A model generated the notes under the pieces. That model saw only the letters and a list, made by a program, of their open reading frames with translations. It was not told the origin of the DNA and searched no databases. Shown piece by piece: positions 16,219-64,000 of a DNA stretch of 64,000 bases. How positions within the stretch are numbered: the first letter of the stretch is position 1; the number at the start of each line of letters is the position of its first letter. Origin of the DNA: a virus; the IMG/VR virus record IMGVR_UViG_3300042908_001045, positions 22,306 to 86,305 of that record. One strand, given 5' to 3'. The translations under genes and the position numbers were made by a program.

Positions 16219-17928
16219 ATGCTCAGACAGTATCAACAAAACGTAATTAAAGACGTGTACTCTTTGTATAAAAAAGGAATTAAATCAGTTTTGGTTTATG
16301 CTCCGACTGGTAGTGGAAAGACGTTTATCGCGTCTCAAATTATAGCTGATGCATTGAATAAGGGGCGAAAAGTTCTTTTTTTAGTTCACAGGACAAGGTT
16401 AATAGAGCAAACGATCAAAACACTGAGAGAAAAATATAGTATTTCCCAATTTGATATTGGAGTGATTTCACCAGAATACTCTCCTGCCTATCATTGTCCA
16501 ATTCAAATAGCAATGGTACAAACGATAGCCAGGAGGCAATTGCCATCAGATATTGGTTTAGTGATTGTTGATGAGGCGCATACACTTGCTTACTTTGAAG
16601 TGTATTCTAGAATAGTAAATCATTACTCTGGTGGCGTATTAGCTTGTTCTAATTGCTTTTTCCTTGGATTATCCGCTTCTCCATGGAGAACTAAAGCTAA
16701 AGAAGGATTTTGTCAGTATTTCCAAGCTATTGTGCGCGCTCCATATCCAGCCGAATTAATTAGAGAAAAACATTTAGCGTCTGCACGTCATTTTGGATGG
16801 GGTGGGTTAATAGATTACAGGAAGCTGGATTCTGCTAATGGAGATTTCACGTCAGTTAGTTTAGAGTTAGTTTGTAATAGCGAGTATAATGCTATTGTTG
16901 TTGATAAATTTAAAGATTTATGCCCTAATAGAAAAACTATAGCTTTTTGTGCTAGTGTTAAACAGGCTGAAGACTTAGCGGAAAAATTTAATCAATTGAA
17001 TATTATTTCTGAAGTAATAAAAGCAGAAACTGATAATAGTGAAAGAAATGCTATTTACAATAGATTTAAGCACGGCATTACACAAATGTTGGTTAGTGTT
17101 TCCGTTTTATGCGAAGGTTTTGATGAGCCAAGTTGTGATGCTGCGATAATTGCTAGACCAACAAAATCTAAAGCATTGTGGGTTCAGATGTGCGGTAGAG
17201 CATTACGAATTTTCCCTGGTAAAGAAAATGCTTATTTACTAGATTTTGGTGACAATACTAAAAGATTTGGATTATCAACAGAAGGCTATCAAACGCCATT
17301 GTGTCCAGTATTTAAGAAAAATCATGAAATGCCAGTTAAAGAATGCCCTAACTGTGCTGCTGTGTTACCTATTTTTGCTCAAATATGTCCTCATTGCGGT
17401 TTTGAATTTATTGGAGAAGAAGATAAAGAAATTCCTGATGTTTTACCAGAGTTTGGTGAGATTTTTTCAAAAGAACAGCAGAAACAAATTGGATATTTAA
17501 GAGGACAGCTACTTCGTGCTTACAAAGCTGGTAGGAATATTGCGAGAGTAACTTGGCTGTTTACAGAACAATATGGATTTGCGCCAGAACAACATTGGTA
17601 TAAAGATGCAATTTTTAGACGCGGTAAATCATGTCATCCGCTTGTTAGAAAAGCAGATCAAGCTAGACTTCTTAAAGTGCTAAAAAAGGCTAATCCTAAA
17701 GCGACATTGGGTTGGTTAGGAGAACAATTCCGCAGAGAATTTGGACCTGGATATTACAATTTTGAAAATGTTATTACTTGGTATGATGCACTGGGAATAC
17801 CATCTAGCAGTTGTTGGAAAGAAATTAAACAAGCCTACCAAAAGTTAATAATAGATGCATCTCCAGAGTATGCGGAAGTTCTTAATTTCTGCTTAGAAGA
17901 TGCTAAAAGTATAAAACTTGGGAAATAA
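16219..17928 (+). CDS. SF2 DEAD/DEAH-box helicase with zinc ribbon
   Basis: A 569-aa protein. Motifs are clear: Q-region RQYQQNVIKDV, motif I APTGSGKT, motif Ia LVHRTRLIEQ, motif II DEAH, motif III LSASPWR, and in the second RecA domain motif VI QMCGRALR. After it comes a zinc ribbon (CPNC...CPHCGFEF near residues 375-395). The remaining ~170 residues are a helical tail that ends in a stretch resembling the first two helices of a J-domain (WYDALGI...WKEIKQAYQKLI) but without HPD. It probably remodels DNA or RNA in phage replication or recombination. It has its own promoter inside the head-gene block. Confidence 0.88.
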   Translation: MLRQYQQNVIKDVYSLYKKGIKSVLVYAPTGSGKTFIASQIIADALNKGRKVLFLVHRTRLIEQTIKTLREKYSISQFDIGVISPEYSPAYHCPIQIAMVQTIARRQLPSDIGLVIVDEAHTLAYFEVYSRIVNHYSGGVLACSNCFFLGLSASPWRTKAKEGFCQYFQAIVRAPYPAELIREKHLASARHFGWGGLIDYRKLDSANGDFTSVSLELVCNSEYNAIVVDKFKDLCPNRKTIAFCASVKQAEDLAEKFNQLNIISEVIKAETDNSERNAIYNRFKHGITQMLVSVSVLCEGFDEPSCDAAIIARPTKSKALWVQMCGRALRIFPGKENAYLLDFGDNTKRFGLSTEGYQTPLCPVFKKNHEMPVKECPNCAAVLPIFAQICPHCGFEFIGEEDKEIPDVLPEFGEIFSKEQQKQIGYLRGQLLRAYKAGRNIARVTWLFTEQYGFAPEQHWYKDAIFRRGKSCHPLVRKADQARLLKVLKKANPKATLGWLGEQFRREFGPGYYNFENVITWYDALGIPSSSCWKEIKQAYQKLIIDASPEYAEVLNFCLEDAKSIKLGK

Positions 17929-18351
17929 TTAATCAATTATGTTGTAGACAAAAAATGATTTAAACCAATCAAAAATAAGTTGTATTTTGTTCCGAAAAAA
18001 AAATAACATTAAAGCGTTTATTCTCACAAAAGTTTCTTTAATATTGACTTTTATTTTTTTAATTTGAAACATTACTATTCTAGATGGTGTTTCACTAGAA
18101 ACTAGAATTACTGTCTTAATTCGCTCAGATTTAAATGTAGGAGTGTCCATTTTCTTAGATCTTAAAAAAGATATAAATTCCGTATAATATTCGGCTAACA
18201 ATAGCCAAGTCTCATCCTGACAGCTTACAAACATGTCTAAATTATTTGTGTTGCTATTATTATCTGTGTTGCTACTATTATTTGATTCTATAAATGTTAT
18301 TGAACAGTAGCTTAGTATTTCTTCTATAGGAGTTTTAATTATTTCAGCCAT
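17929..18351 (-). CDS. unknown protein with hydrophobic C-terminus (ILxxCSI family, copy 1)
   Basis: A 140-aa protein. The N-terminal half has ILSYCSITFIES, an Asn/Ser-rich loop, then LDMFVSCQDETW and LIRV-type strands; the C-terminal 40 residues are hydrophobic and aromatic (NALMLFFFRNKIQLIFDWFKSFFVY), a likely membrane segment. The same plan is found in the protein at 33126-33515, so it belongs to a duplicated family. It overlaps the XRE gene by 13 bp and probably forms an operon with it. Function is unknown. Confidence 0.6.
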   Translation of the reverse strand: MAEIIKTPIEEILSYCSITFIESNNSSNTDNNSNTNNLDMFVSCQDETWLLLAEYYTEFISFLRSKKMDTPTFKSERIKTVILVSSETPSRIVMFQIKKIKVNIKETFVRINALMLFFFRNKIQLIFDWFKSFFVYNIID

Positions 18352-18578
18352 GGGTTTTTTGGATTAACTACGCTTTCATCTAAATTTAGCAAAGTGACAG
18401 GGTTTATCTCCAGTGCGCGAGCTAACTTAATTAATAATGGAACTGTCTTAATTCCTCTTTGCTCAGCGCGAATAACTGTCATTCTACTAAGATTTGCACA
18501 AATAGCTAATCTTTGGTGACTGAATCCTTTCTCTATTCGAACTTCTCGTAAGTAACTACCTTGTTTTGATGGTTTCAT
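18339..18578 (-). CDS. XRE-family helix-turn-helix regulator
   Basis: A 79-aa Cro/CI-type protein: LREVRIEKGFSHQRLAICANLSRMTVIRAEQRGI spans the HTH (given here in parts: helix 2 QRLAICANL, recognition helix RMTVIRAEQ), followed by VPLLIKLARALEINPVTLL. Such regulators bind palindromic operators. It is transcribed away from the major capsid gene, so the 94-bp intergenic region could be its operator. It may control its downstream partner or the capsid operon. Confidence 0.85.
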   Translation of the reverse strand: MKPSKQGSYLREVRIEKGFSHQRLAICANLSRMTVIRAEQRGIKTVPLLIKLARALEINPVTLLNLDESVVNPKNPWLK

Positions 18579-18672
18579 ATTTTGTACCGTATTAGATACA
18601 TCTATTCAGATTATTGCCATTTTAGTTGGTATTTTTATTTTAAAGTAATAAGTATAATCTAGCCAAAATTGT
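18579..18672 (+). promoter_or_regulatory. divergent regulatory region before the capsid gene
   Basis: TATAAT at 18653-18658 lies 15 bp before the capsid ATG with no recognisable -35, so a non-standard sigma or activator may be used. The region separates the XRE gene (minus) from the capsid gene (plus). Confidence 0.4.
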
Positions 18673-22389: not shown

Positions 22390-22593
22390 ATGAGTAATAT
22401 TGAACACCCAAAACATTATCAGCAAGCAGATATTGAGTGCATTGACGCAATTAAAGCAGCATTGTCTTCTGAAGAGCTAAAAGGCTTTATAAAAGGGAAT
22501 ATCATAAAGTACACTTGGCGAAGTGACCATAAAAACGGATTAGAAGATCTCCAAAAAGCTCAATGGTACTTAAATTGGTATTTGAATTTATAG
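22390..22593 (+). CDS. DUF3310 (SaV-like) phage protein
   Basis: A 67-aa protein with the DUF3310 hallmarks: HPKHYQQADIECIDAI at the start, the central FIKGNIIKYTWRSDHKNG and the LEDLQKAQWYLNWY helix. These proteins are common in phages and sometimes labelled nucleotide kinase-like, but their biochemical role is not settled. Expression probably passes through the leader hairpin immediately upstream. It converges on and overlaps the sigma gene by 6 bp. Confidence 0.85.
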   Translation: MSNIEHPKHYQQADIECIDAIKAALSSEELKGFIKGNIIKYTWRSDHKNGLEDLQKAQWYLNWYLNL

Positions 22594-23523
22594 CTTAATT
22601 AGCTTATTGCCTATAACTTTGTATTGCTTCAACCAGTTATAGGCAGTAGTTTTAGAAATATGTAAATAAGTTTTACACCAAGCAAATGATTTTCCTTGAT
22701 TCAAAGCATTGATTACAGCAATTTTCAATTCTGTGCTATAGCCAGGTCTTCCTAGTGCGCCAGGGTTTTCCACAAATTGATATTTACAGTTTTTACATAA
22801 ATATTGTTGTTTTTGTTTTCTTTTCCCGTTTTTAACAATATTTTTACTCAAACAAAGAGGACAAAACAAAATGTTGTTTACAATATTTTTAAGTAATTCT
22901 ATACCTTGTTTTTCTATCTGCTTAATCTGATATACAGATAATCCATACATATTTTTTATTTCTTGTATTTTAAAATCATGTATATGTATTAACCTAATTA
23001 TTTGAGCATGTATATCAGGAATTTTTTCTAAAATAATCTCTAATTCCTGTATAGAAGAATTATCGTAATAACTAATTTCTGGTAAATCTAAACAAGTTTT
23101 TTGGTATGCTTTACTAATTTCTTCAACTTTTTCTGGAGTTATATTTAAAAGTTTTACTGCACATTCATATGACATGTTGTTCTTACGTGCATAACGTTTA
23201 ATTGTCTGATGCGTTTCTTGTATTGCCCTAGGAATTTTTATTATTTTATCTTTATCTCGCAAGTACATCAAAATAGATCCGTTAATAAACGGTAGCGCAA
23301 AACTAGACAACTTTTCTGATTTATTTGGATTATATCTTTCTATGGCTTGAATTAATCCCATACTGCCAATCTGAATTAAATCGTCTAAAGGAGTAGAACA
23401 TGTTTTTTGCATTTTGCTAGCGACAGAATACACTAATCCCATGTTTTGCTCTACTAATTTATTTCTAGTAGTTATGTTTTTGTCTTTAAAATATTTTATT
23501 AACAGCTGTTGGTTGTCATACAT
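22588..23523 (-). CDS. sigma factor fused to an IS1/InsA-like zinc ribbon and HTH
   Basis: A 311-aa protein. Residues 20-90 form sigma region 2 (NKLVEQNMGLVYSVASKM, DDLIQIGSMGLIQAIERY, SSFALPFINGSILMYLRDK), 96-145 resemble region 3, and 160-213 form region 4 (KIQEIKNMYGLSVYQIKQIE). It is closest in style to the SigB/SigF group. Unexpectedly, C221, C224, C243 and C246 then make a CPLC...CKNC zinc ribbon, followed by a helix-turn-helix at 262-303 (LKIAVINALNQGKSFAWCKT, ISKTTAYNWLKQY). This pair is the N-terminal DNA-binding unit of IS1-type transposases (InsA). No catalytic transposase part is present. It likely redirects host RNA polymerase to phage promoters with extra DNA contacts from the added domain. 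Confidence 0.85.
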   Translation of the reverse strand: MYDNQQLLIKYFKDKNITTRNKLVEQNMGLVYSVASKMQKTCSTPLDDLIQIGSMGLIQAIERYNPNKSEKLSSFALPFINGSILMYLRDKDKIIKIPRAIQETHQTIKRYARKNNMSYECAVKLLNITPEKVEEISKAYQKTCLDLPEISYYDNSSIQELEIILEKIPDIHAQIIRLIHIHDFKIQEIKNMYGLSVYQIKQIEKQGIELLKNIVNNILFCPLCLSKNIVKNGKRKQKQQYLCKNCKYQFVENPGALGRPGYSTELKIAVINALNQGKSFAWCKTYLHISKTTAYNWLKQYKVIGNKLIKL

Positions 23524-23603: not shown

Positions 23604-24563
23604 TTATTGTGCTTGCAAAGCAGTTTCTAAAAGTTCTACACGCACAGTTAGCTCTTGTATAGCTTTGACTAAAATTGGGATAAGTCTAGCTGGTGCAATT
23701 AGCTTTTGGTCTGTAACAATGTTTTCGTCAGTTTCTGGGTCTGTGTAATCAATATCGTAAGTTGACACAATACCCGGCACAGCGTATACACTTGATTGAA
23801 CAGACTCAACTTCTTGCGCTATAAACCCTATTTCCGTAATGTCCTTTTTGGTGCCAACGCATTTGCGCATGTTCCAAGTAAATTTTCTAGGAATAAGTGC
23901 ATTTATGTAAGCTAGTCCACTGAAATTTAATGCTTCAATGTCTTTTTTGTCACGGGCATCTGAATGCCCAGATATTGAAGTATCAGCACATATTAAATTT
24001 GTGACTTCACTGTTTCCAAGAACAAAATGGTTGTTTTGAGTAGTTATATTTACGCCATAGACTCCAGCACTTTGTCCTATCGCCACGTTATTGAATCCAG
24101 TGGTGTTAGAAGAAAGCGCACTTGTCCCTATCGCCGTGTTGGCATAACCAATGGTGTTAAAATAAAGCGCATCTCGTCCTATCGCCGTGTTGGCATAACC
24201 AGCGGTGTTAGAAAAAAGCGCACCTTGCCCTATCGCCACGGTATTTACTCCAGTGGTGTTAGAATAAAGCGCATCTCGTCCTATCGCCGTGTTGGCATAA
24301 CCAGTGGTGTTAGACTGAAGCGCATTTATCCCTAACGCTGCGTTATCTCCTGCTGAAAGCAAATAAGGAGTCCAAGTCGTTCCTAAATATATTTTTACTC
24401 TACTGTTATTTGTGTCAAACCAGAATTGTTGTTGTTGTGGATTACTTGGCGCTGTAGCTCCAGAGGACATGGTAGCAACTTGTTTTAATGCTTCATTAAC
24501 ATACTGCCTGTAATTAGCGCCAGATACGTTTTGGATGTCTAATCCTTGAGTTCCTTGTGACAT
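23604..24563 (-). CDS. tail fibre/spike protein with S74 intramolecular chaperone
   Basis: A 319-aa protein. The N-terminus (MSQGTQGLDIQNVSG, QQQQFWFDTNNSRVKIYLG) looks like a virion attachment part. The middle has 17-residue repeats of the GYANTAIGRDALYSNTT type that resemble the beta-roll of trimeric adhesins. The C-terminal ~110 residues are a Peptidase_S74 chaperone: SDARDKKDIEAL with the Ser-Asp/Lys autocleavage site, GFIAQEVE, YDIDYTDPETDENI and a final coiled coil (IPILVKAIQELTVRVELLE). S74 domains trimerise fibres and then cut themselves off. It lies on the opposite strand to the head and tail genes around it. Confidence 0.85.
   Translation of the reverse strand: MSQGTQGLDIQNVSGANYRQYVNEALKQVATMSSGATAPSNPQQQQFWFDTNNSRVKIYLGTTWTPYLLSAGDNAALGINALQSNTTGYANTAIGRDALYSNTTGVNTVAIGQGALFSNTAGYANTAIGRDALYFNTIGYANTAIGTSALSSNTTGFNNVAIGQSAGVYGVNITTQNNHFVLGNSEVTNLICADTSISGHSDARDKKDIEALNFSGLAYINALIPRKFTWNMRKCVGTKKDITEIGFIAQEVESVQSSVYAVPGIVSTYDIDYTDPETDENIVTDQKLIAPARLIPILVKAIQELTVRVELLETALQAQ
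24060..24345 (-). repeat. 51-bp repeats in the fibre gene
   Basis: About five tandem 51-bp units encode the 17-residue NTAIG-type repeats. Individual units are similar enough at DNA level to recombine, so the number of repeats may vary among relatives. Confidence 0.75.
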
Positions 24564-25368: not shown

Positions 25369-25410
25369 TAAAATGGCAATTATAAGTTAATAAAGGATTA
25401 AAAGAAGCTC

Positions 25411-26442
25411 ATGCCATTAGCCACAGCATCTGTTGTTTTACAAAGTTATACACTTGATTTAATGCTTTTGGGACTTAATGTTTTTGGCGCTTCAAACAGA
25501 TTTGTAGCCAAAGATATTTTAACAGTCCAGAATAATGCTGCGGTTTATGACAAAAGTATTATTTTAAAAAGTAACTCAAGTACTGGAACTTATTTAAGAG
25601 CTGGAACAGGAATTAGTTTTAGTGGTGTTAATTACAGAAATCAAGTAGTAGTAGCAGAAGACATTACTGTAACTGGATCTAGTGGTTCTGTTACATCAGT
25701 AAAAGTAGAGCCATTGTTAAAACCATTGTCTAGTGGAGTAACTGGGACTGTTTTAGCTCCTGTTAGAATGATTCTTAATTCAGTTGACACAACTAATAAT
25801 ATTGACACTTGGCGATTTGTAGATTCAATGACAACAATTGAAGGGTTAAGCCCATTTACTAGAGCAGTGATAAGTATTGTTAATCCCGTGGCTGGCTCTT
25901 CTCCTATAATGATACCTCAAAATGCTAATCTTGATTTTGGTTCTTTAACTCCAATTAATCCTGATGTTGTTTTTTTAAATTCAACATCCAGCTCAGTTAT
26001 TTATTTTAATGGTAGCCCAAATACACTAAATATTTCTGCTGGTTCACAAGCAAGTTATTTAACTGGTTCTATTCCATTGTGTGGTATTCAAACAATGGAT
26101 TTAAGTAATCAAGATACTCAAATAGATATTACAACGTTTCAATCTGGACTTGGGACAGATTCTAACACAGTAAGATATTCTCGCTCGTATTCAATTTCTG
26201 GCATTTCATTGTCTGGGGATGAGGCACTTGAAAAAATAGTTAAACCAGCTGCTGGACTAAAATCTATATCTAATGGGAAAGAAGTGTATGCAATAGCTAC
26301 TTTTCCTGATGGAGAAAGAATAGAAGGAGTTGCTGTAATAAACAATTTGAATTTACCTACCAATCAAAATGAAGTTAAGAAATATTCATTTACTTTAACT
26401 TTTCTTGGTAAAAATTTTAATTGGGATTCTCCTATAATTTAA
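25411..26442 (+). CDS. tail-tube-like protein 1 (one inserted module)
   Basis: A 343-aa protein. It starts MPLATASVVLQSYTLDLMLLG and ends with a conserved ~115-residue block (SIPLCGIQTMDLSNQDTQ, GDEALEKIVKPAAG, VYAIATFPDGERIEG, NEVKKYSFTLTFLGKNF). The same two ends occur in the next three genes, so this is a tandem family; the end block looks like a tail-tube subunit. Between the halves it carries one copy each of two insert types: IDTWRFVDSMTTIEGLSPFT and VIYFNGSPNTLNIS. AAAGGA precedes the ATG. It may be a decorated or minor tube subunit. Confidence 0.65.
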   Translation: MPLATASVVLQSYTLDLMLLGLNVFGASNRFVAKDILTVQNNAAVYDKSIILKSNSSTGTYLRAGTGISFSGVNYRNQVVVAEDITVTGSSGSVTSVKVEPLLKPLSSGVTGTVLAPVRMILNSVDTTNNIDTWRFVDSMTTIEGLSPFTRAVISIVNPVAGSSPIMIPQNANLDFGSLTPINPDVVFLNSTSSSVIYFNGSPNTLNISAGSQASYLTGSIPLCGIQTMDLSNQDTQIDITTFQSGLGTDSNTVRYSRSYSISGISLSGDEALEKIVKPAAGLKSISNGKEVYAIATFPDGERIEGVAVINNLNLPTNQNEVKKYSFTLTFLGKNFNWDSPII

Positions 26443-26500
26443 TAAAGCTAAAGTTGGATATATCTGGCAAGTATAAAGTAAGAAAAGGATTAAAAGTCTT

Positions 26501-29500
26501 ATGCCATTAGCCACAGCATCTGTTATTTTACAAAATTACACACTTGATTTGATGCTTTTAGGGACTAGTGCGTCTGGAGCGTCTAATAGATTTGTGGCTA
26601 AAGATATTTTAACAGTTCAGAGCAACGCAGCTATTTACGATAAAGATATTGTATTAAGAACTAGTTCAACTAGTGGAACGTATTTAAGAGCTGGGCTTGG
26701 AATTAGTTTTGACGAATCTGGCTATAAAAATCAAGTAGTAATCGCACAAGATGTTACAATTGCCAGTAATGTAAATACTAACGTCAAAGTAGAGCCGTTA
26801 TTAAAACCATTATCTAGTGGAGTAACCGGTACTGTCTTGGCTCCCATTAGATTACAATTAACTTCAGTTGACACTACCAATAATATTGATAGCTGGTATT
26901 TTATAGATTTAATGCCAAAAATTCAAGGAAACAGTCCTTTTACTCAGGCAAAAATAAAAACTACTAATTTACCTGCTGATTCTCCTTCTGTAATGGTAAA
27001 AGAATCAAAACTTGCTTTTGGTAATACTGTTTTAACAATTGCAAATACTGATGTTATAAAAACTCCAATAAATTTATTTAATACGTTTGTTCGAGTTCAT
27101 ATAGCGTCGGTAGATTCTACTAATTTTGTTGATAGCTGGCGTTATATAGATTTTATGCCAACTATACAGGGAGAAAGTCCATTTACTCAATCAAAGTTAA
27201 GAGTTAGTAATTTAGACCGCAACACACAATCAGTAGTAGCTCCATATTCAAGTCTTGTTTTTGAAAATATTAATGTAAGTTTAACGGTATCTCCTGAAAT
27301 ATTTATTAGCTTTCTTGATACAATTAATGATGGTAATAGCTTATTTACTCAAGCTGTTATAGAGATGAGAAAACTACCTTTTGATTACAGCTCAATAACA
27401 GTACCTGATTCAACTTTTGTTTTTAATAATGTTCCATTAGCCACAGAAGTCAGTATTAGACCGCAAATTACTTGGGTTGACGAAGGCGTTGATGTTTACA
27501 TACATTCAATTAACACAAATAATAATATCGATACTTGGCGTTACATAGATTTTATCTCAAATATTGATAATGGAATTAGTCCATTTACTCAAGTAAATTT
27601 AGGAGTTAATAGATTACCATCTAACGCTCCATTTGTACAAATTCCGGATTCGGTACTTATTTTTAATGGAATTAGTACAAGTAAAAGCGTGCCTCCTGAG
27701 TTGTATGTTAGCTCTGTTGATACAAATAACAATGGAAATATTCTATATACCAAAGTTGTTGTAAAAACAAGAAAGATACCTTTTGATTTTTCATCAATAA
27801 CAATACCTGATTCAGCATTTACTTTTGGAAATGTTCAGCCAACTGCAAACGTTAATGCTGAAGCACGATTATCTTGGGTTGATGAAGGCGTTGATGTTTA
27901 TATAGATTCAATTAATACAAGCAATATTAATACTTGGCGTTATATAGACTTTGTCTCAGATATTGACAATGGAACTAGCCCATTTACCCAGGCAAGCATA
28001 AAAGTTAGTAGATTGCCATCTAACGCTCCATTTGTGCAAATTCCGGATTCAGTACTTACTTTTGATGGAATTAGCACAAGTAAAAGTGTACCTCCTGAGT
28101 TGTATGTTAGTTTTGTTGGTACAAATAATTTTATTGATACTTGGCGATTTATTGATTCAATGCCAACAATTCAAGGTAGTAGTCCATTTACACAAGTTAT
28201 TTTAAAGACAAGAAAAATACCTTTTGATACTTCTTCAATAGCTATACCTGATTCAGCTTTTACTTTTGCAGGTATTCAGCCAAGTACAGATGTGTCTAGC
28301 ATTAAAAACATTTTTTTATCTGGTGGTGATACTGCAACAGTTTATTATGCTGGTAGCCCAGATACTTCATTAATTTCTGTTGGATTGTTCAATACATTTA
28401 CAGCTTTTGTCCCTACTTCTCCTGGGTACAATGGAGTTATAATTAACCAAAATTCTGCATCAATAGTTTATTTTGATGGCGCTCCCAATCAAGTATCTGT
28501 TGCTGTTGGATCATTGTTTTCTTACGTTACCAATTTTATTGATACATGGCGTTTCATTGATTTAATGCCAACAGTTGAATCAATTAGTCCGTTTACACAA
28601 GCTAAAATAACAGTTACAGAAACGCCAGTAGAATACAATTTCGTAACAATACTTCAGTCTAGTCTTGTTTTTAATAATATTAGTGCAATTGAATCTAGCG
28701 TTGTAGTCAATAGAAACTCAGAAGCAATAATTTATTTTAATGGTAATCCACGTACCTTGCCTATTTCTATTGGATTGTCGTCTAATCCTTTTCCAGTATC
28801 AGTGCCTTCGTTAAATGACGTTAGAAATACTCTATTATCTGGTAACGATACTGCAACAATTTATTTTAATGGCATTCCAGGTACATTGCCTATTTCAGTA
28901 GGTTTATTTAACACATTTACAGCTTTTGTCCCTACTTCTCCTGGGTACAATGGAGTTATAGTTAACCAAAATTCTACATCAATAGCTTATTTTGATGGCG
29001 CTCCTGGCACGGTACCTATTTCAGTAGGTCTCTTTAATTCTTACGTTACCAACTTTATTGATACATGGCGTTTCATTGATTCAATGCCAACAGTTGAATC
29101 AATTAGTCCGTTTACGCAATCTAAAATAAAAGTTACAAAAACGCCAGTAGAATATGCCTCAGTGACTGTACCTCAATCTAGTCTTACTTTTAATGGGCTT
29201 ACTGCACTCGAAAGTAGTGCTATAGTTAACAGAAACTCAGAAGCAATAATTTATTTTAATGGCAGCCCACGGACTTTACCGATTTCTGCTGGGTTAACAT
29301 CTAGTTCTTTCCGTGTAACTGTTCCTCCATTGTCTGAAATTAAAAATACTGTTCTATCTGGCAATAATATAAAGAGAACAGTTTACTTTGATGGACTCCC
29401 AGGTACGTTGCCTATATCTACTGGATTGTTTAACACATTCACTGCTTTTGTTCCTCCAACACCTGGATATAATGGAGTTTTCATTGCTAGAAATTCCAGG

Positions 29501-30106
29501 ACTACAGTTTACTTTGATGGTGAGCCAAATACATTGCCTATTTCTACAGAATCATCTAATACTTATGTAACAGGAATTTTCCCTTTTTCTGCTGCACAAG
29601 AAATGGATTTAGATGAACAGGAAATACAGTTTTATGGAACAGATCCTGGTATTACTGAAATTTATTTTAACGGCAGTCCAAATACATTGCCTATTTCAGC
29701 TGGATCCCAGACAAACTATTTAACTGGTCCTATTCCTCTTTGTGGTATTCAGGCAATGGATTTAAGTAATCAAGATACTCAAATAGATACAACAACATTT
29801 CAATCTGGTGTTAAAACAGATGCTAGTGTTGTACGTTCTGCACGGTCTTATAATGTATCTGGGATTGCTTTAGTTGGGGATGAAGCATTGGAGAAAATAG
29901 TCAAAAAAGCAAATGGGCTAACTCCAACTTCATTTGAATTTGTAGGAGATGAAGTGTATGCTGTAGCCACATTTCCAGATGGAGAAAAGATAGAAGGCGC
30001 TGCTTTGATAACCAATCTAAGTCTACCTGGCAACCAAAACGAAGTTAAAAAGTATTCTTTTACTTTAACTTTTCTTGGTAAAAAAATGTCTCAAATTTTA
30101 CTTTAA
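26501..30106 (+). CDS. giant tail-tube-like protein 2 with expanded repeats
   Basis: A 1201-aa paralogue of its neighbours. Residues 1-120 (MPLATASVILQNYTLDLMLL) and the last ~130 residues (IPLCGIQAMDLSNQDTQ...NEVKKYSFTLTFLGKKM) match the 343-aa protein, while ~930 residues of repeats are inserted between them. Seven units carry a DTWRFIDSMPTIQGSSPFTQ-type motif (plus two degenerate ones), mostly in the first two thirds, and nine units carry a YFNGSPRTLPIS-type motif, mostly in the last half. The repeats look like all-beta surface domains. A reasonable model is a tube subunit displaying a long array, or a fibre that borrowed tube ends to polymerise with the tube. Confidence 0.65.
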   Translation: MPLATASVILQNYTLDLMLLGTSASGASNRFVAKDILTVQSNAAIYDKDIVLRTSSTSGTYLRAGLGISFDESGYKNQVVIAQDVTIASNVNTNVKVEPLLKPLSSGVTGTVLAPIRLQLTSVDTTNNIDSWYFIDLMPKIQGNSPFTQAKIKTTNLPADSPSVMVKESKLAFGNTVLTIANTDVIKTPINLFNTFVRVHIASVDSTNFVDSWRYIDFMPTIQGESPFTQSKLRVSNLDRNTQSVVAPYSSLVFENINVSLTVSPEIFISFLDTINDGNSLFTQAVIEMRKLPFDYSSITVPDSTFVFNNVPLATEVSIRPQITWVDEGVDVYIHSINTNNNIDTWRYIDFISNIDNGISPFTQVNLGVNRLPSNAPFVQIPDSVLIFNGISTSKSVPPELYVSSVDTNNNGNILYTKVVVKTRKIPFDFSSITIPDSAFTFGNVQPTANVNAEARLSWVDEGVDVYIDSINTSNINTWRYIDFVSDIDNGTSPFTQASIKVSRLPSNAPFVQIPDSVLTFDGISTSKSVPPELYVSFVGTNNFIDTWRFIDSMPTIQGSSPFTQVILKTRKIPFDTSSIAIPDSAFTFAGIQPSTDVSSIKNIFLSGGDTATVYYAGSPDTSLISVGLFNTFTAFVPTSPGYNGVIINQNSASIVYFDGAPNQVSVAVGSLFSYVTNFIDTWRFIDLMPTVESISPFTQAKITVTETPVEYNFVTILQSSLVFNNISAIESSVVVNRNSEAIIYFNGNPRTLPISIGLSSNPFPVSVPSLNDVRNTLLSGNDTATIYFNGIPGTLPISVGLFNTFTAFVPTSPGYNGVIVNQNSTSIAYFDGAPGTVPISVGLFNSYVTNFIDTWRFIDSMPTVESISPFTQSKIKVTKTPVEYASVTVPQSSLTFNGLTALESSAIVNRNSEAIIYFNGSPRTLPISAGLTSSSFRVTVPPLSEIKNTVLSGNNIKRTVYFDGLPGTLPISTGLFNTFTAFVPPTPGYNGVFIARNSRTTVYFDGEPNTLPISTESSNTYVTGIFPFSAAQEMDLDEQEIQFYGTDPGITEIYFNGSPNTLPISAGSQTNYLTGPIPLCGIQAMDLSNQDTQIDTTTFQSGVKTDASVVRSARSYNVSGIALVGDEALEKIVKKANGLTPTSFEFVGDEVYAVATFPDGEKIEGAALITNLSLPGNQNEVKKYSFTLTFLGKKMSQILL
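26860..29720 (+). repeat. internal repeat array of the giant tube-like gene
   Basis: Degenerate repeats encode two alternating motif types (WRFIDSMPT...SPFTQ and YFNG.P.TLPIS). Some blocks are nearly identical at DNA level, for example the segments around 28400 and 28930 coding TAFVPTSPGYNGVI, and those around 28530 and 29045 coding YVTNFIDTWRFID, which shows recent duplication. Confidence 0.8.
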
Positions 30107-30122
30107 CAAATAAGGAGAAATT

Positions 30123-30920
30123 ATGCCTTTAGCTACCGCTCCAGTTATTTTACAAGATTATTCTTTAGAAGTAATGCTATTGCCTTTGGTTACAAGTGGG
30201 TTTGCTGCTGGAACTTCTGATAGAAACATTAGTTCGTTAAGACGTGTTCTTACTTGTACTACTCAAGTTGCACCTCCTACCAGCGGTGGTGTAGCTACAC
30301 TTGCATTGACCACTGATGAAGGTAGTAGTTCTTCTCCAACAATCATTAAGGAAGGCACTGGATTATCGTTTATAGAACCACTTGCGCAAAATGCCCCAGC
30401 TGGAACTGTTAGAACTAGAATTCAAGTAATGGCTGCTGAAGATAAAAGTATTGCGCATGGCGCTAGTGCTACTGATTTGAAAGTAATTGGACTAGACAGA
30501 ACTATTGCTGCAAATAGCACGGCTGCATTAATTGAGGGTTTACTCCCATTAAGCGGTATTCAAACACTAGATTTGAGTAATCAAGAAACTCAAGTTGATA
30601 CCACTTCTTTCCAATCTGGATCCGGAACAGAAATGGCAATGATTCGCGTGGCTCGTGCCTATTCCGTGTCTGGTATTGCATTGGCTGGAGATGAGGCGCT
30701 CGAAAGAGTAGTTAAACCAGTTGCTGGATTTCAGGGAGAATTTTTTGGTAGAGAAATTTATGCTGTAGCTACATTCCCAGACGGTGAAAGATTGGCAGGT
30801 GCTGCTAAAGTAACTGCGTTTAACTTTCCAGCCAACCAAAACGAAGTTAAAAAGTACAGTTTTACGCTAACATTTATGGGTAAATCCTTTGAATGGAATC
30901 CTCCATATTCTATTAGCTAA
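30123..30920 (+). CDS. tail tube protein 3 (compact form)
   Basis: A 265-aa protein with both conserved ends of the family and no insert: after EDKSIAHGASATDLKVIGL the sequence goes straight to LIEGLLPLSGIQTLDLSNQETQ and on through GDEALERVVKPVAG, EIYAVATFPDGERLAG and NEVKKYSFTLTFMGKSF. Its size is typical of siphovirus major tail proteins, so it is a good candidate for the main tube subunit. AAGGAG precedes ATG 30123. Seventeen bp separate it from the giant paralogue. Confidence 0.7.
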   Translation: MPLATAPVILQDYSLEVMLLPLVTSGFAAGTSDRNISSLRRVLTCTTQVAPPTSGGVATLALTTDEGSSSSPTIIKEGTGLSFIEPLAQNAPAGTVRTRIQVMAAEDKSIAHGASATDLKVIGLDRTIAANSTAALIEGLLPLSGIQTLDLSNQETQVDTTSFQSGSGTEMAMIRVARAYSVSGIALAGDEALERVVKPVAGFQGEFFGREIYAVATFPDGERLAGAAKVTAFNFPANQNEVKKYSFTLTFMGKSFEWNPPYSIS

Positions 30921-30922
30921 AT

Positions 30923-31648
30923 ATGTCTTTTTCCCAACCACTTTGCAACAGCTCTCTTGACGTAATGCTGCTTCCCAGCAACAGTGCGGGAAGCACTATT
31001 ACTGACGTTACGAAGGTGACAGCTTTAATTGCTCAAACTGCTAACATTGGGTCTTCTCAAATCTATTTGCAAGTCGTCGGTGGATCTTACTTTGTTCCCG
31101 CCGGCATTGCTTTGTCTTTTGCGGGAACTTCTGTTAGTGGCGTAGCGTCTAGGCGAAGACAAGTTGTAATATCTCAAGATGTTGTGTTAACAACAAGTCC
31201 ACTATTAGTTCCGGTAGAGCCTTTACAATATCCGGTACTGCAAACTGATAGCGCAGTCGTTGTACCTGGATTACTCCCAATTAATGGTATTACGACTTTA
31301 GATATTTCAGCTCAAGAAACTTCTGTTGACACAACTAATGCTTCATCTCGTAAAGGAGTGAATAGCGTTTTCATACGCAGGGCGATCAGCTGCAATGTTA
31401 GCGGCATTGCGTTGGCTGGAGACAAGGCGTTGGAGACAGTAATTAAGCCAGCTGGAATATTCTCTAATAGTTTGTATGGTAGAGATATTTATGCTGTAAT
31501 TACTTTACCTAATGGAGAGAGAATTGTTGGAGTGGCTAAAGTTGGTGGCATATCTTTCCCAGCTAATCAAAACGAAGTTATGAAATATTCGTTTAACTTA
31601 ATATTCCAAGGAGATTTACTTGAGTGGACTTCTGCTTTTAGTTTTTGA
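30923..31648 (+). CDS. tail tube protein 4 (compact form)
   Basis: A 241-aa paralogue with the same C-terminal block (LLPINGITTLDISAQETSVD, GDKALETVIKPAGI, DIYAVITLPNGERIVG, NEVMKYSFNLIFQGDLL) but a more divergent N-terminus (LCNSSLDVMLLPSNSAGST). Its codon choice is slightly more GC-rich than its neighbours, hinting at a separate history. It could be the major or an alternative tube subunit. Confidence 0.65.
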   Translation: MSFSQPLCNSSLDVMLLPSNSAGSTITDVTKVTALIAQTANIGSSQIYLQVVGGSYFVPAGIALSFAGTSVSGVASRRRQVVISQDVVLTTSPLLVPVEPLQYPVLQTDSAVVVPGLLPINGITTLDISAQETSVDTTNASSRKGVNSVFIRRAISCNVSGIALAGDKALETVIKPAGIFSNSLYGRDIYAVITLPNGERIVGVAKVGGISFPANQNEVMKYSFNLIFQGDLLEWTSAFSF

Positions 31649-34300: not shown

Positions 34301-34668
34301 TACATTACAATACCTAAGTTACTAGGAATATTAGATCTGACTTGACTAGCAGTGATTTTATTACTTATAACATATTGGTTTTCTCCAATTAAAGATAAAA
34401 CCCATTCTCCGCAAACACATTCTTTAAGATTTTGTCCTGTAGGACTCCAAAGAAACGACTTGTCAGCATATTGTCGTAACACGTTCAAAATATCGTTTAC
34501 TTCGGATTCTGAGTAGACTGGGCTGCGAACATCCCATTCTACAATAGGAAATATTCCCTGAGTTAAAACTTGACTATAATTATCTCCTAGTCTAGTTTTA
34601 GCTGTAGGAATAAGAGTCTTTTGGCTTGTTTGCCAAGTAGGAGTAAGATAAAGAATTGGTAACGTCAT
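34300..34668 (-). CDS. gpM-like minor tail protein (copy on minus strand)
   Basis: A 122-aa protein. PILYLTPTWQTSQ, the TRLGDNYSQVLTQGIFPIVEW segment (GD.Y.Q...GI in lambda gpM) and the closing FLWSPTGQNLKECVCGEW are typical of gpM-type tail tip proteins. A second protein of the same general type is encoded at 41317-41649 next to gpL. It is coupled to gpK (one-base overlap) and to the upstream fibre gene (4-bp overlap), so it belongs to this operon. Confidence 0.65.
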   Translation of the reverse strand: MTLPILYLTPTWQTSQKTLIPTAKTRLGDNYSQVLTQGIFPIVEWDVRSPVYSESEVNDILNVLRQYADKSFLWSPTGQNLKECVCGEWVLSLIGENQYVISNKITASQVRSNIPSNLGIVM

Positions 34669-37600
34669 GATGCTATAAAATAACCAATTGTGTAATTAAA
34701 AGTGGATGCAGCAGAAGATACAATATTTAGTGCTGTGTTTGGAGATAAGCGTATTTCTCTGTTTTGCGCTAAATTAGCCTCTCCTTCCATTCCTTGGGAA
34801 GACAAGAAAAATCTAGCAACATTATCAGCACCATTTCTAATTGTAACTGTTTGTGCAGCAGTTCCTTCTAATTGTACTCTAATATATGATACATAAATTC
34901 TATTACCAGTTGGGACAGGAGCGCCAACAACAGTAGTTGTGGTAGCAGTAGTGATAGTATTTGTGATGAACACCATAGTTCTATCACTAATCGACTGCTG
35001 AGTAAGTGTAATTAATATTTTCAACAATCCAATCAAACTTGTTGTGTTTGCATTGTAGTCAATGCTTGCCCAGCTATCTATAAACGATATACTATCAATA
35101 TTTATAATTGGAGCATCTGAAATAGCACCAATAGACACAATATTATTAGCTTCTGTAAGAAGTCTTTTGGTTAAAGAGATTAAACTAGCAGTACCCGTGT
35201 CAGTGGCTGCCGAACTATCTGTCGTCGTACCAATAGATGTAATTACTCCTTTTAAAAGTGCAACTAAACTGGCTGTTCCTGTAGTGGCTGCTGTATCTGT
35301 TGTTGTTCCAATAGACGCAATATTATCTGTTTCTTGTAATAGTTTTTTGATTAAAGATATTAAAGTAGCAGTACCTGTGTCTGTTGTTGCTGCCGCATCT
35401 GTTGTTGTTCCTAAAACTGCACTAACATTACCAATTTGCTGGTTAATAGCAGTAACTGTGTTATCTCCATCGGTGCTTAATAGCCTTTTAAGTAATGATA
35501 TTAAGCTGGTATTTTGAGTGTCTGTAGTAGCTGCACTATCTGATGTGGTGCCAATTGAACTAATTAGTCCTTTCAATAATGAAACAACACTAGCGTTGCC
35601 AGAAGTGACTGCTGCATCAGATGTTGCTCCAATAGAAGCAACATTGTCTGTTTCTACTAACAACCGTTTTAATAAAGCTATAACAGTAAAAGTACCTGTA
35701 TCTGTTGTTGCTACTGCATCTGTTGTTGTTCCTAATGATGCAGTAACATTGTTTATTTGTTGATTGATAGCAGTAACTGTGTTATCTCCATCGGTACTTA
35801 ACAATCTTTTAAGTAGTGATATCAAACTAGTGTTTTGAGTGTCTGTCGTAGCTGCCGTATCAGAGGTAGATCCAATAGAGGCATTTAAGCCTTTAATTAA
35901 AGACACTAAACTAGCAGAACCACTATTTGCCGCTGCATCTGAAGTTGTCCCAATAGAAGCAATGTTGTCAGTTTCTTGTAGTAATCTTTTGAATAAAGCA
36001 ATTAAGCTAAACGTCCCGCTATCCGTTGTTGCCGCTGCATCTGCTCTAGTTCCAAGTAAAGTGTATATATCACTTAATTGTTGATTAGTGCCTGCCACAC
36101 CGTCTGTTTCAAGTAGTCGTTTAATTAAAGATATTAAACTTGCATTGGCAGTGTCTGAAGTGGCCGAATTGTCAGTAATAGACCCTATTGCATTATTTAA
36201 TCCTTTAATTAAAGCTACTAAACTAGCGTCGCCTGATGCTGCTGCAACATCTGAAATGCTTCCAATTGATGCAATATTGTTAGTTTCTGATAACAACCGT
36301 TTTAGCAACGCTATGACAGTAAAAGTACCTGCATCTGTCGTTGCCGCTGCATCTGATGTTGTTCCTAGCGCTGTAGTAACGTTACTTATTTGTTGATTAA
36401 TAGCAGTAACTGTATTATCTCCATCAGTTGCTAACAATCTTTTAAGTAACGATATTAAACTTGCATTTTCAGTATCTGTAGTGGCTGCACTATCTGATGT
36501 AGTGCCAATTGAAGTATTTAATCCTTTAACTAACGACACTAAGCTAGCAGAGCCACTGTTTGCCGACGCGTCTGAAGTAGTTCCAATAGAGGTAATATTG
36601 TCAGTTTCTTGTAATAATCTTTTAATTAAAGATATTAAAGTAGCAGCACCTGTATCTGTCGTTGCTGCCGAGTCAGAATTAGTTCCAATAGATTGATTTA
36701 ATCCTTTGATTAAAGAGATTAAACTAACATTACCGGATATAGCAGCTAAATCACTGGTAGTTCCAATTGAAGATATGTTGTTAGTTTCACTTAATAATCG
36801 CTTAAACAGTGATATTAACGTAAATACTCCATCATCTGAAGTAGCTAATGAATCATTGGTAGTTCCAATTGAAGCAAGTATATTAGATAAATGCTGATTA
36901 ATACTGTTTATGTTACTGCTATCCCCATCAGTACTTAACAATCTTTTGAGTAGAGAAATTAAAGTAGCTGAGTCAGTATCTGAAGTTGCTGGTGTGTCTG
37001 ATGTTGCCCCAATAGTTAAATTAAGTCCTTTAAGTAAACTAACTACACTAGCATTACCAGATGTAGCAGCTGTATCCGACACTTCTCCAATTGATGCAAT
37101 ATTATTTGTTTCTTGTAATAATTTTTTAAGTAAAGAAATTATGCTAAATGTTCCTGTATCGTTAGTTGCGACTGCATCTGTTGTGTTTCCTAAAGTTGTG
37201 GTGACATTACCAATTTGCTGATTAATAGCAGTAACTGTATTATCTCCATCACTTGCTAATAGTCTTTTAAGCAATGATATCAAACTAGAATTTTGGTCAT
37301 CTGCTGTAGCTGCTGCATCAGAAGTAGATCCAATGGAAATGTTCAAACCTTTAATTAAAGATATTAAACTAGCATTCCCAGAGTTTGCCGACGCGTCTGA
37401 AGTTGCCCCAATCGAAGCAATATTATTAGTTTCAGTTAATAGTTTTTTAATTAAAGATATTAAACTAAATTGTCCATCATCTGCTGTAGCTGGACTATCA
37501 ATTGAAGTTCCGATAGAATTGTAAATATTAGCAAGTTGTTGATTAATGCCTTGGATATTGCCGCTATCGCCATCTGTACTTAATAGTCTTTTTAGCAAAG

Positions 37601-37985
37601 ATATTACGCTAGCATTGGCTGTGTCTGATGTAGCAGGACTATCATTTATACTGCCAACAGAAGTTTCAACTTTATTATTTAGTTCAACACACTCTAATAC
37701 AGACCTTTGCCCAAAGTCTATTAGTCTTTTTGTTAAAGCTATTAAAGTTCCATCACTAACGCTATAGTCAATTTGTGTTAAATCATCGGGAACTGTTATG
37801 TTATCGAGATCAGTAATAGTGTCCAGCAATTTGACGGTATCTATAGTTTTAGACGCAAAATCACTAATATCACCAACATCAGCTGAGGAAAATTCTGGAA
37901 TATGTGGGTTAGCTTCTGTTCCCGCTCCTGATACTTTCCTGTATTTTACAGCACCAGCTCCATCAATATATCTAGCAGAACTCAT
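34665..37985 (-). CDS. repeat fibre protein, 1106 aa
   Basis: Almost the whole protein is built from about 26 short units with the core ASLISLLKRLL or ASLVSLIKGL, separated by IGTTSDAAATTDTGT-like linkers. Units follow a three-beat order: a long unit with TDGDNTVTAINQQI, a unit with ETNNIASIG, and a short KGL unit, giving a super-repeat of roughly 118 residues. Such units form trimeric fibre shafts. The last ~110 residues (TGNRIYVSYIRVQLEGT, TIRNGADNVARFFLSSQ, FNYTIGYFIAS) form a beta-rich head likely to bind receptor. The N-terminal ~60 residues probably attach it to the tail tip. It sits among the gpI/gpJ/gpK genes. Confidence 0.7.
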   Translation of the reverse strand: MSSARYIDGAGAVKYRKVSGAGTEANPHIPEFSSADVGDISDFASKTIDTVKLLDTITDLDNITVPDDLTQIDYSVSDGTLIALTKRLIDFGQRSVLECVELNNKVETSVGSINDSPATSDTANASVISLLKRLLSTDGDSGNIQGINQQLANIYNSIGTSIDSPATADDGQFSLISLIKKLLTETNNIASIGATSDASANSGNASLISLIKGLNISIGSTSDAAATADDQNSSLISLLKRLLASDGDNTVTAINQQIGNVTTTLGNTTDAVATNDTGTFSIISLLKKLLQETNNIASIGEVSDTAATSGNASVVSLLKGLNLTIGATSDTPATSDTDSATLISLLKRLLSTDGDSSNINSINQHLSNILASIGTTNDSLATSDDGVFTLISLFKRLLSETNNISSIGTTSDLAAISGNVSLISLIKGLNQSIGTNSDSAATTDTGAATLISLIKRLLQETDNITSIGTTSDASANSGSASLVSLVKGLNTSIGTTSDSAATTDTENASLISLLKRLLATDGDNTVTAINQQISNVTTALGTTSDAAATTDAGTFTVIALLKRLLSETNNIASIGSISDVAAASGDASLVALIKGLNNAIGSITDNSATSDTANASLISLIKRLLETDGVAGTNQQLSDIYTLLGTRADAAATTDSGTFSLIALFKRLLQETDNIASIGTTSDAAANSGSASLVSLIKGLNASIGSTSDTAATTDTQNTSLISLLKRLLSTDGDNTVTAINQQINNVTASLGTTTDAVATTDTGTFTVIALLKRLLVETDNVASIGATSDAAVTSGNASVVSLLKGLISSIGTTSDSAATTDTQNTSLISLLKRLLSTDGDNTVTAINQQIGNVSAVLGTTTDAAATTDTGTATLISLIKKLLQETDNIASIGTTTDTAATTGTASLVALLKGVITSIGTTTDSSAATDTGTASLISLTKRLLTEANNIVSIGAISDAPIINIDSISFIDSWASIDYNANTTSLIGLLKILITLTQQSISDRTMVFITNTITTATTTTVVGAPVPTGNRIYVSYIRVQLEGTAAQTVTIRNGADNVARFFLSSQGMEGEANLAQNREIRLSPNTALNIVSSAASTFNYTIGYFIAS
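35000..37800 (-). repeat. fibre shaft repeats
   Basis: Around 26 units in this stretch code for LISLLKRLL-type repeats; distant units are close in DNA sequence, so copy number can change by recombination. Long open frames on the other strand here are mirror images of the repeat and not genes. Confidence 0.8.
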
Positions 37986-62903: not shown

Positions 62904-63467
62904 ATGCTATCACAAGAACTCTCCCCACATAGGGGACAGATAATAGGATTAGCGGCGTATTTGAATTTCCGGTTTGCTGCTAGAGACTTCTTATCTGAAG
63001 TATTAGCATACAAGCTAAGAATTAGAGTTGTGTTAAGAGACGGACCGGACATAGGGATAGTGAGATTCAACAAAGATGTAGAAATAATACTAACAGAATA
63101 CATGACGATAAAAGAGATGATAACAGTACCCGACTGGTTTGCAAAAATCAAGAGAAACGCTAGTAAACAGCGTTTCTGGGTGGGAGACGATTATATAGTC
63201 TCCTACTTTTGGAATCCAGAGATAGGGCAAGTAGTGGAATCAATGGACGATCGACGCAACGGACTGAATGCCGTTGATCGCTATAAATCCAAAGAGCTAG
63301 GCAGTGATGAAGCTGCTGTCCTGGCACAAATTCAATTAAGACTTGGCGAGAAAGAAGCCAAGATAGCGGCTAAAACGAGTATTCTGAATGCGTATGATGA
63401 ATACGTGCTTGACAGACAGAAGCGCTCGTTACCTGTTAAGAGCTTTGAAAAATGGGCAGCAAAATAA
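62904..63467 (+). CDS. protein of unknown function
   Basis: A 187-aa protein. It is mixed alpha/beta at first (GLAAYLNFRFAARDFLSEVL, IRVVLRDGPDIGIVRFNKDV) and helical and charged later (RLGEKEAKIAAKTSILNAYD). Codon choice is less AT-rich than the surrounding genes, suggesting separate origin. No motif recognised. It is divergent from the tape measure gene. Confidence 0.6.
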   Translation: MLSQELSPHRGQIIGLAAYLNFRFAARDFLSEVLAYKLRIRVVLRDGPDIGIVRFNKDVEIILTEYMTIKEMITVPDWFAKIKRNASKQRFWVGDDYIVSYFWNPEIGQVVESMDDRRNGLNAVDRYKSKELGSDEAAVLAQIQLRLGEKEAKIAAKTSILNAYDEYVLDRQKRSLPVKSFEKWAAK

Positions 63468-63501
63468 CCCACCTGACGAGTTCATTTGCAGCGTGAACGA
63501 A

Positions 63502-63517
63502 ACTGCCGAAAGGCAGT
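63502..63517 (+). promoter_or_regulatory. small GNRA-loop hairpin
   Basis: ACTGCC GAAA GGCAGT (63502-63517) lies between the 187-aa gene and the next gene; there is no T-run, so it is more likely an mRNA structure than a terminator. Confidence 0.4.
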
Positions 63518-63548
63518 CGTGGGAGCTGTTTACACCCACAGGAGGAAG

Positions 63549-63839
63549 ATGAAAGCATTAGAACGCCCACAGCAGTGGCACGCGAATAGGCTGGAATCAT
63601 TCAAAGATAAATTAATTCCATGCTATTCCGTTTCAGTCATCGTCTTAGGAGATGACGAGCTAGAAGAACAAAATAAATACTTTCCAGCCACGAGAGCTGG
63701 ATTAGCATCTGCTCAAGCTGCTAATGGAAGGCATTTATACAAGACTGAGATAGAGGCAAGGTATGTGATGCCGCATGGAATGAGTATGCAATCACCAGAG
63801 TTTGAGAACTGGTGTAGAGAGTGGAGAGTTTTGCTCTAG
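63549..63839 (+). CDS. protein of unknown function
   Basis: A 96-aa protein from ATG 63549, chosen because AGGAGGA lies immediately upstream; an in-frame start at 63486 would run through the hairpin and has no such site. It contains KLIPCYSVSVIVLGDDELEE and a C-terminal SMQSPEFENWCREWRVLL. No domain recognised. Confidence 0.6.
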   Translation: MKALERPQQWHANRLESFKDKLIPCYSVSVIVLGDDELEEQNKYFPATRAGLASAQAANGRHLYKTEIEARYVMPHGMSMQSPEFENWCREWRVLL

Positions 63840-63845
63840 AGTTTT

Positions 63846-63926
63846 GCTGTAAAGCACTTTTTTGTTGATTTGACAAGAAGTTTAAGAGTTAAAAGTTGTA
63901 ATTTGGATTAGCTGTAAAGCACTTTT
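63846..63926 (+). repeat. 16-bp direct repeat upstream of the right-edge promoter
   Basis: GCTGTAAAGCACTTTT occurs at 63846-63861 and 63911-63926, 65 bp apart. The pair lies upstream of a promoter; such repeats may be regulator-binding sites or short iterons. Confidence 0.55.
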
Positions 63927-63954
63927 GTATCCAAAACTTTTTTCTCTAAACTAC

Positions 63955-63983
63955 TTGACGGTAAAATAAAAGTAGTTTATGAT
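63955..63983 (+). promoter_or_regulatory. sigma70-type promoter reading out of the window
   Basis: TTGACG (63955-63960), 17-nt spacer, TATGAT (63978-63983), in the ACTTGAC context seen elsewhere; AAAGGAG follows. It must serve a gene beyond 64000. Confidence 0.7.
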
Positions 63984-64000
63984 AAAGGAGTAGTTGAGAG

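Follow-up and report, generated by a model that had tools for sequence, protein, structure and literature searches.

A SigF-like phage sigma factor joined in frame to an IS1/InsA-type zinc ribbon and helix-turn-helix tail in a virus of bloom-forming cyanobacteria

The fused gene and its domains

The window analyzed in this work, that is, the whole stretch of 64,000 nucleotides corresponding to positions 22306-86305 of an 86,305-base virus record, belongs to a virus of bloom-forming cyanobacteria and harbors a 311-aa ORF in which a sigma factor half is followed, in one uninterrupted frame, by an IS1-type tail. A preliminary description of this DNA had already reported the single frame, which is indeed found at 23523-22588; the strand, not mentioned there, is the minus one. 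The ORF and the units recognized within it are the following (all positions refer to the window).

22588-23523, minus strand: fused gene, SigF-like sigma factor plus IS1/InsA-type zinc ribbon and helix-turn-helix (HTH) tail (open frame, profiles, 13 homologous contigs)
23245-23457, minus strand: sigma region 2, residues 23-93 (Pfam Sigma70_r2, 6.7e-16)
23095-23229, minus strand: region-3 position, residues 99-143, three helices (AlphaFold model; no Sigma70_r3 profile match)
22888-23031, minus strand: sigma region 4, residues 165-212 (Pfam Sigma70_r4, 2.5e-7)
22774-22866, minus strand: four-cysteine zinc ribbon of the IS1/IS1595 type, residues 220-250 (NF050000; cysteines invariant in three lineages)
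22624-22734, minus strand: HTH, residues 264-300 (HTH_28, transpos_IS1 through residue 302, model helices)
22594-22623, minus strand: C-terminal beta hairpin, residues 301-310 (AlphaFold models; conserved K307, L308 and K310)

The profile searches proposed in the preliminary description supported both halves of the protein. The Pfam models Sigma70_r2 (58.3 bits, cut-off 24) and Sigma70_r4 (30.5 bits, cut-off 24.1) both match above their curated cut-offs, which places the protein, by profile, among the sigma-70 factors. Of the three sigma regions originally claimed (2, 3 and 4), the second and the fourth are confirmed by Pfam, whereas region 3 gave no profile match with Sigma70_r3, and at its position (residues 99-143) the AlphaFold model only shows three helices. 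The best family for the sigma half is that of the cyanobacterial SigF (NCBIfam PRK07408, 2.5e-40), the full-length score being 138.8 bits against a cut-off of 261, so that SigF is the closest family and membership does not follow from the score.

The IS1/InsA-type ribbon and HTH that had been read at the C-terminus were recovered by several models. The NCBIfam model transpos_IS1 matched the tail alone at 2.3e-15 over model positions 1-80 of 199, spanning both ribbon and HTH in the order typical of IS1, with the HTH after the ribbon, and the IS1/IS1595 zinc-domain model NF050000 (cut-off 28) scored 51.4 bits with the window tail alone and 47.7 and 48.7 bits with those of two other lineages described below. 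HTH_28 was found at residues 267-302 (1.3e-5), and Zn_ribbon_InsA at residues 220-247 (2.7e-4), below the Pfam cut-off in the window copy and above it in the two other lineages. The cysteines C221, C224, C243 and C246 lie exactly where they had been placed. The catalytic part of the transposase is missing, as the preliminary description had noted: no DDE domain is present in the fused protein, the transpos_IS1 match stopping at about position 80 of 199 and the ORF ending nine residues further on. The C-terminal hairpin falls outside the portion that can be aligned to IS1 transposases. The tail as a whole is strongly basic, with 17 K/R and 2 D/E in 96 aa. The domain structure, a sigma factor and an IS1-type tail in one frame, can be considered close to certain.

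The AlphaFold model of the fused protein (mean pLDDT 75.6, based on only 13 sequences) depicts separate units, namely region 2, the helices, region 4, the ribbon, a flexible linker at residues 254-261, the HTH and the small hairpin, and a tail-only model is consistent with the full-length one. A fold search with the whole tail gave no significant match; the ribbon half taken separately showed a weak, non-significant resemblance to the RPB9/C11 ribbons of RNA polymerases, and the folds nearest to the HTH half were the DNA-binding HTHs of resolvase and IstA (E not significant).

Distribution, conservation and origin of the fusion

The search for the same domain order elsewhere, also suggested in the preliminary description, was successful in virus contigs, 13 more of which carry the same fusion, whereas plasmid and phage searches and a genome-contig scan did not retrieve it. 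According to their identity to the window protein, these contigs can be split into three lineages, at about 100% (three contigs), 64% (nine, including a partial one) and 51% (one). All lineages share, without any change, the four cysteines and the core KNGKR..QQYLCK and GKSFAWC. The fusion would have been an artefact if the C-terminal part had lacked profile support or if a stop or a frameshift had interrupted residues 215-221; neither holds, and a frameshift or a chimera is ruled out by the junction being in frame in 13/13 contigs from three lineages. The single record of the 51% lineage (L014/G007) exhibits, within the sigma half, homopolymer indels of a single base, the tail being in frame with region 4. 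Since the whole record is frame-broken, other genes included (the capsid gene has an ORF of 290 of 586 aa), these indels were regarded as sequencing errors; no base was corrected and only in-frame stretches were used.

The identity of the tail between lineages (56-65%) is not lower than that of the sigma half; in the comparison between the window and L007, for instance, the two values are 65% and 63%, respectively. The pN of the tail between lineages ranges from 0.24 to 0.31, against a pS of 0.61-0.81 with synonymous sites often saturated (window and L007: pN 0.24, pS 0.81, the latter saturated). The low pN relative to a near-saturated pS, together with an identity on a par with that of the sigma half, indicates at the sequence level that the tail is under purifying selection, with a constraint about equal to that acting on the sigma half. 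Besides, at least three related virus lineages keep the joined form, and for this reason the fusion is probably a working transcription switch and not an accident.

The nearest relatives of the tail are IS1 transposases of Nostoc, Cylindrospermopsis, Stanieria and other cyanobacteria (35-40% identity), and the tail appears plainly to have been acquired from an IS1-family transposase. Four genomes turned out to be largely collinear, that is, the window record, those of L007 and L014, and the cultured Cylindrospermopsis phage Cr-LKS4, which comes from Lake Kinneret and grows on C. raciborskii (PMC10811720). In Cr-LKS4 the ortholog of the sigma gene occupies the syntenic position between capsid and tail genes; its product, like the sigma factor of the Cylindrospermopsis phage RM-2018a, is 45.5% identical to the fused protein, unlike which it consists of 225 aa and ends immediately after region 4, without any tail. 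No InsA-type ribbon was found elsewhere in the Cr-LKS4 genome, and more distant phage sigma relatives are likewise tailless. Given the absence of the tail from Cr-LKS4 and from these more distant relatives, its gain, rather than its loss, would be the simpler history. In the sigma tree the two tailless rows group together, and the tree gives no clear answer on the monophyly of the tailed ones. The family phrog_21612, which matches residues 19-299, was considered as a possible known family of tailed sigma factors and discarded, the tail alone giving no match.

Some other features of these genomes were also observed. The last ~0.88 kb of the window (63121-64000) is an inverted copy, 87% identical, of the first ~0.87 kb of the record (1-873 versus 85426-86305 of the record), and the adjacent pieces are also repeated; they might be genuine terminal inverted repeats, or else two variants joined during assembly. 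In Cr-LKS4 (OQ625504.1) a 100% identical inverted repeat of 10.7 kb (73977-84685 and 90417-101125, loci L057-L059) lies at the end of the sequence, which could reflect a terminal inverted repeat of great length or a palindrome produced by the assembly; the gene counts in this part may be doubled. The gene just upstream of the sigma gene (23604-24563, minus strand) is tail-spike-like, with repeated 'NTxGYANTAIGxxAL' units, and looks like a recent insertion, since the collinear relatives yielded no ortholog of it. Several paralogous tail genes lie in a row at 25411-31648 (genes 25411, 26501, 30123 and 30923); the one at 26501-30106 codes for 1201 aa with repeated internal segments, its counterparts in related phages being of ~250-360 aa. 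Similarly, the gene at 34665-37985 (minus strand) codes for 1106 aa, versus 171-209 aa in the orthologs of three related phages, apparently through internal repeat expansion.

Promoters of the structural genes

The upstream regions were compared in three genomes, i.e., the window record, that of L007 and Cr-LKS4. A host-type pair of TTGACA and TATAAT-like boxes occurs in one of the 58 upstream regions of the structural (late) block and in 48 of the 112 others (p=6.6e-10); a strong TTGACA-17-TATAAT located about 55 nt before the start codons marks early and accessory genes, as it does before window position 16219. The near absence of host-type promoters from the structural block suggests that the late genes probably need a sigma factor other than the host-type one, and the fused protein is the sigma factor identified within this block.

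Several late genes are preceded, at 30-44 nt, by the sequence [A/T]GGCAA[C/T], a candidate phage element; an EM motif search on the upstream regions of late genes returned TGGCAA(C/T). The candidates in the window are the following.

25374-25380, plus strand: TGGCAAT, 37 nt ahead of the tail gene 25411; at this gene position in all four genomes
18613-18619, minus strand: TGGCAAT, between two divergent genes, the major capsid gene (18673) and a Cro/CI-like gene (18339-18578); kept in three lineages that carry the tail
26465-26471, plus strand: TGGCAAG, a weaker candidate, ahead of the tail gene 26501

The sequence [AT]GGCAAC occurs 11 times at 25-50 nt ahead of the starts, against 1.66 expected, and composition-matched control hexamers are not enriched; these statistics are post hoc and moderate, the value of 1.3e-5 being borderline after correction over 4096 6-mers. 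The element is missing ahead of several late genes, and is found ahead of the giant tail gene in two genomes. The divergent region between the capsid and the Cro-like gene (18339-18672), conserved in three lineages, also embeds an operator-like stretch, TGTATC...ATACGGTA.

The element resembles the -12 box of the Synechocystis SigF, GGTAA (PMC2758279). We infer that it represents a -10/-12 box and not a -35 box, since its distance from the start codon would otherwise be too short to accommodate a ribosome site. A TAGGC-like -32 box of the SigF type was not found in any convincing form, a TAGG-like one being present at only a few sites. The element also occurs in Cr-LKS4, whose sigma factor is tailless, and it is thus more likely read by sigma region 2/3 than by the tail. 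A further EM search for a second, tail-specific motif in the late upstream regions revealed nothing clearly above shuffled sequences. The suggestion that the fused protein recognizes late promoters lacking a -35 box has indirect support, in that the host-type TTGACA occurs in just 1/58 late regions and GGCAA is the only conserved element found near the late starts; since this element is shared with the tailless phage, it is no evidence for a reading of late promoters by the tail.

Possible roles of the tail

Transposase DNA-binding parts captured as transcription factors are well known. In the case of E. coli, InsA consists of the ribbon (ZF) and the HTH alone, binds the IS1 ends, for which both motifs are required, and represses the IS1 promoter (PMC12428005). 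On the basis of this analogy, of the signatures kept, of the strongly basic composition and of the short linker to region 4, a tethered DNA-binding domain represents in our opinion the best reading of the tail. We slightly favor, overall, a late sigma factor that has a second DNA contact built into it. According to this scheme, the protein would be an alternative sigma factor of the SigF/SigB type, by which the host RNA polymerase is redirected to phage promoters, most probably to those of the late (structural) genes; region 2 would read the -12-like [A/T]GGCAA[C/T], and the InsA-like unit, which follows region 4 directly, would hold the DNA at the promoter or immediately ahead of it, thereby stabilizing or sharpening promoter binding as an activator within the same polypeptide. 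Activators touching region 4 bind the DNA just upstream of the -35 position in sigma-70 complexes, and the short linker would set the tail beside this same DNA. What the fused protein does along these lines stands at about even chances. We advance more tentatively, as a possibility somewhat short of an even chance, the original idea of a sigma factor and an activator in one polypeptide, where the exapted IS1 unit supplies a third, upstream contact, with late promoters selected jointly by region 2 and by a reader of transposon origin that takes the place of a -35 box. The tail may be either an activator or an inhibitor, its sequence being compatible with both.

The direct junction with region 4 would also suit an autoregulatory tail, masking or modulating region 4 or core binding and being released by timing (binding of zinc, DNA or a partner), in the same way as the C-terminal extension of ECF41, of about 100 aa, controls its sigma factor both positively and negatively (PMC3426412). 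We regard this as unlikely, if still worth considering: the family of the tail is a DNA-binding one, its composition is strongly basic, the signatures of both ribbon and HTH are preserved, and Pfam/NCBIfam reveal no similarity to SnoaL-type or anti-sigma domains. ECF41 and ECF56 share with the fused protein an additional domain of about 100 aa past region 4 (PMC3426412; PMC7730460), but their extension is SnoaL-like and regulatory, whereas here it is a transposase DNA-binding unit; with no SnoaL match and a SigF-like sigma half, the protein falls outside this ECF type. It is quite unlikely that the tail touches RNA polymerase or another phage protein without any role on DNA; zinc ribbons can bind proteins, and the ribbon half has the faint, non-significant RPB9/C11 likeness mentioned above, but the HTH half has been retained too and its nearest, albeit non-significant, folds are DNA-binding ones.

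The tail might otherwise still recognize IS1 ends, so that the sigma factor would bind the IS1 elements of the host, or competing ones, and either block them or attract RNA polymerase to them. The tail is homologous to the unit that in E. coli InsA binds the IS1 terminal inverted repeats (PMC12428005), and its closest relatives are the cyanobacterial IS1 transposases. This possibility nevertheless appears very unlikely, as the identity to any IS1 found is just 35-40%, the control of host IS elements brings little benefit to a phage in the lytic cycle, and no IS1-end-like stretch was noticed at the phage promoters. In particular, the ends of cyanobacterial IS1 (GGCGTTGCATAA...) have no convincing match there; only the 5-mer GTTGC is in common once the GGCAAC element is reverse-complemented, and TGCAAC shows no positional bias. 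Lastly, the plain IS1 origin and the tailless ortholog of Cr-LKS4 might point to a functionless, passive remnant of an IS1 that inserted into the sigma gene at its 3' end. This explanation is largely refuted and extremely improbable, as a tail under no selection would have decayed: three lineages with near-saturated synonymous sites have kept the frame open, together with the HTH core and all four cysteines.

Phage sigma factors are common, and late ones such as T4 gp55 with gp33 and SPO1 gp28/gp34 redirect the host RNA polymerase to late genes; unlike the fused protein, they have no fused zinc ribbon-HTH. The cyanobacterial group 3 factors (SigB/SigF/SigG), and SigF above all, resemble it in being the best match of the sigma half, with regions 2 and 4 and a GGTAA box similar to GGCAA; it differs from them in being phage-encoded and in adding a 96-aa predicted DNA-binding tail, as well as in the score reported above. 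With the IS1 transposase N-terminus and the InsA repressor it shares the ribbon and the HTH, but it has no DDE domain, is joined to a sigma factor and possesses its own C-terminal hairpin. In agreement with the preliminary description, the open-access literature yielded no sigma factor with the DNA-binding unit of a transposase fused to it.

If the tail does read promoter DNA, this natural sigma-activator fusion would show how a third promoter contact can be gained in one step. The presence of tailed and tailless orthologs at one locus represents a natural pair that makes the question of the tail directly testable, and offers a clue to the way in which late genes may be switched on by phages infecting toxic, bloom-forming cyanobacteria.
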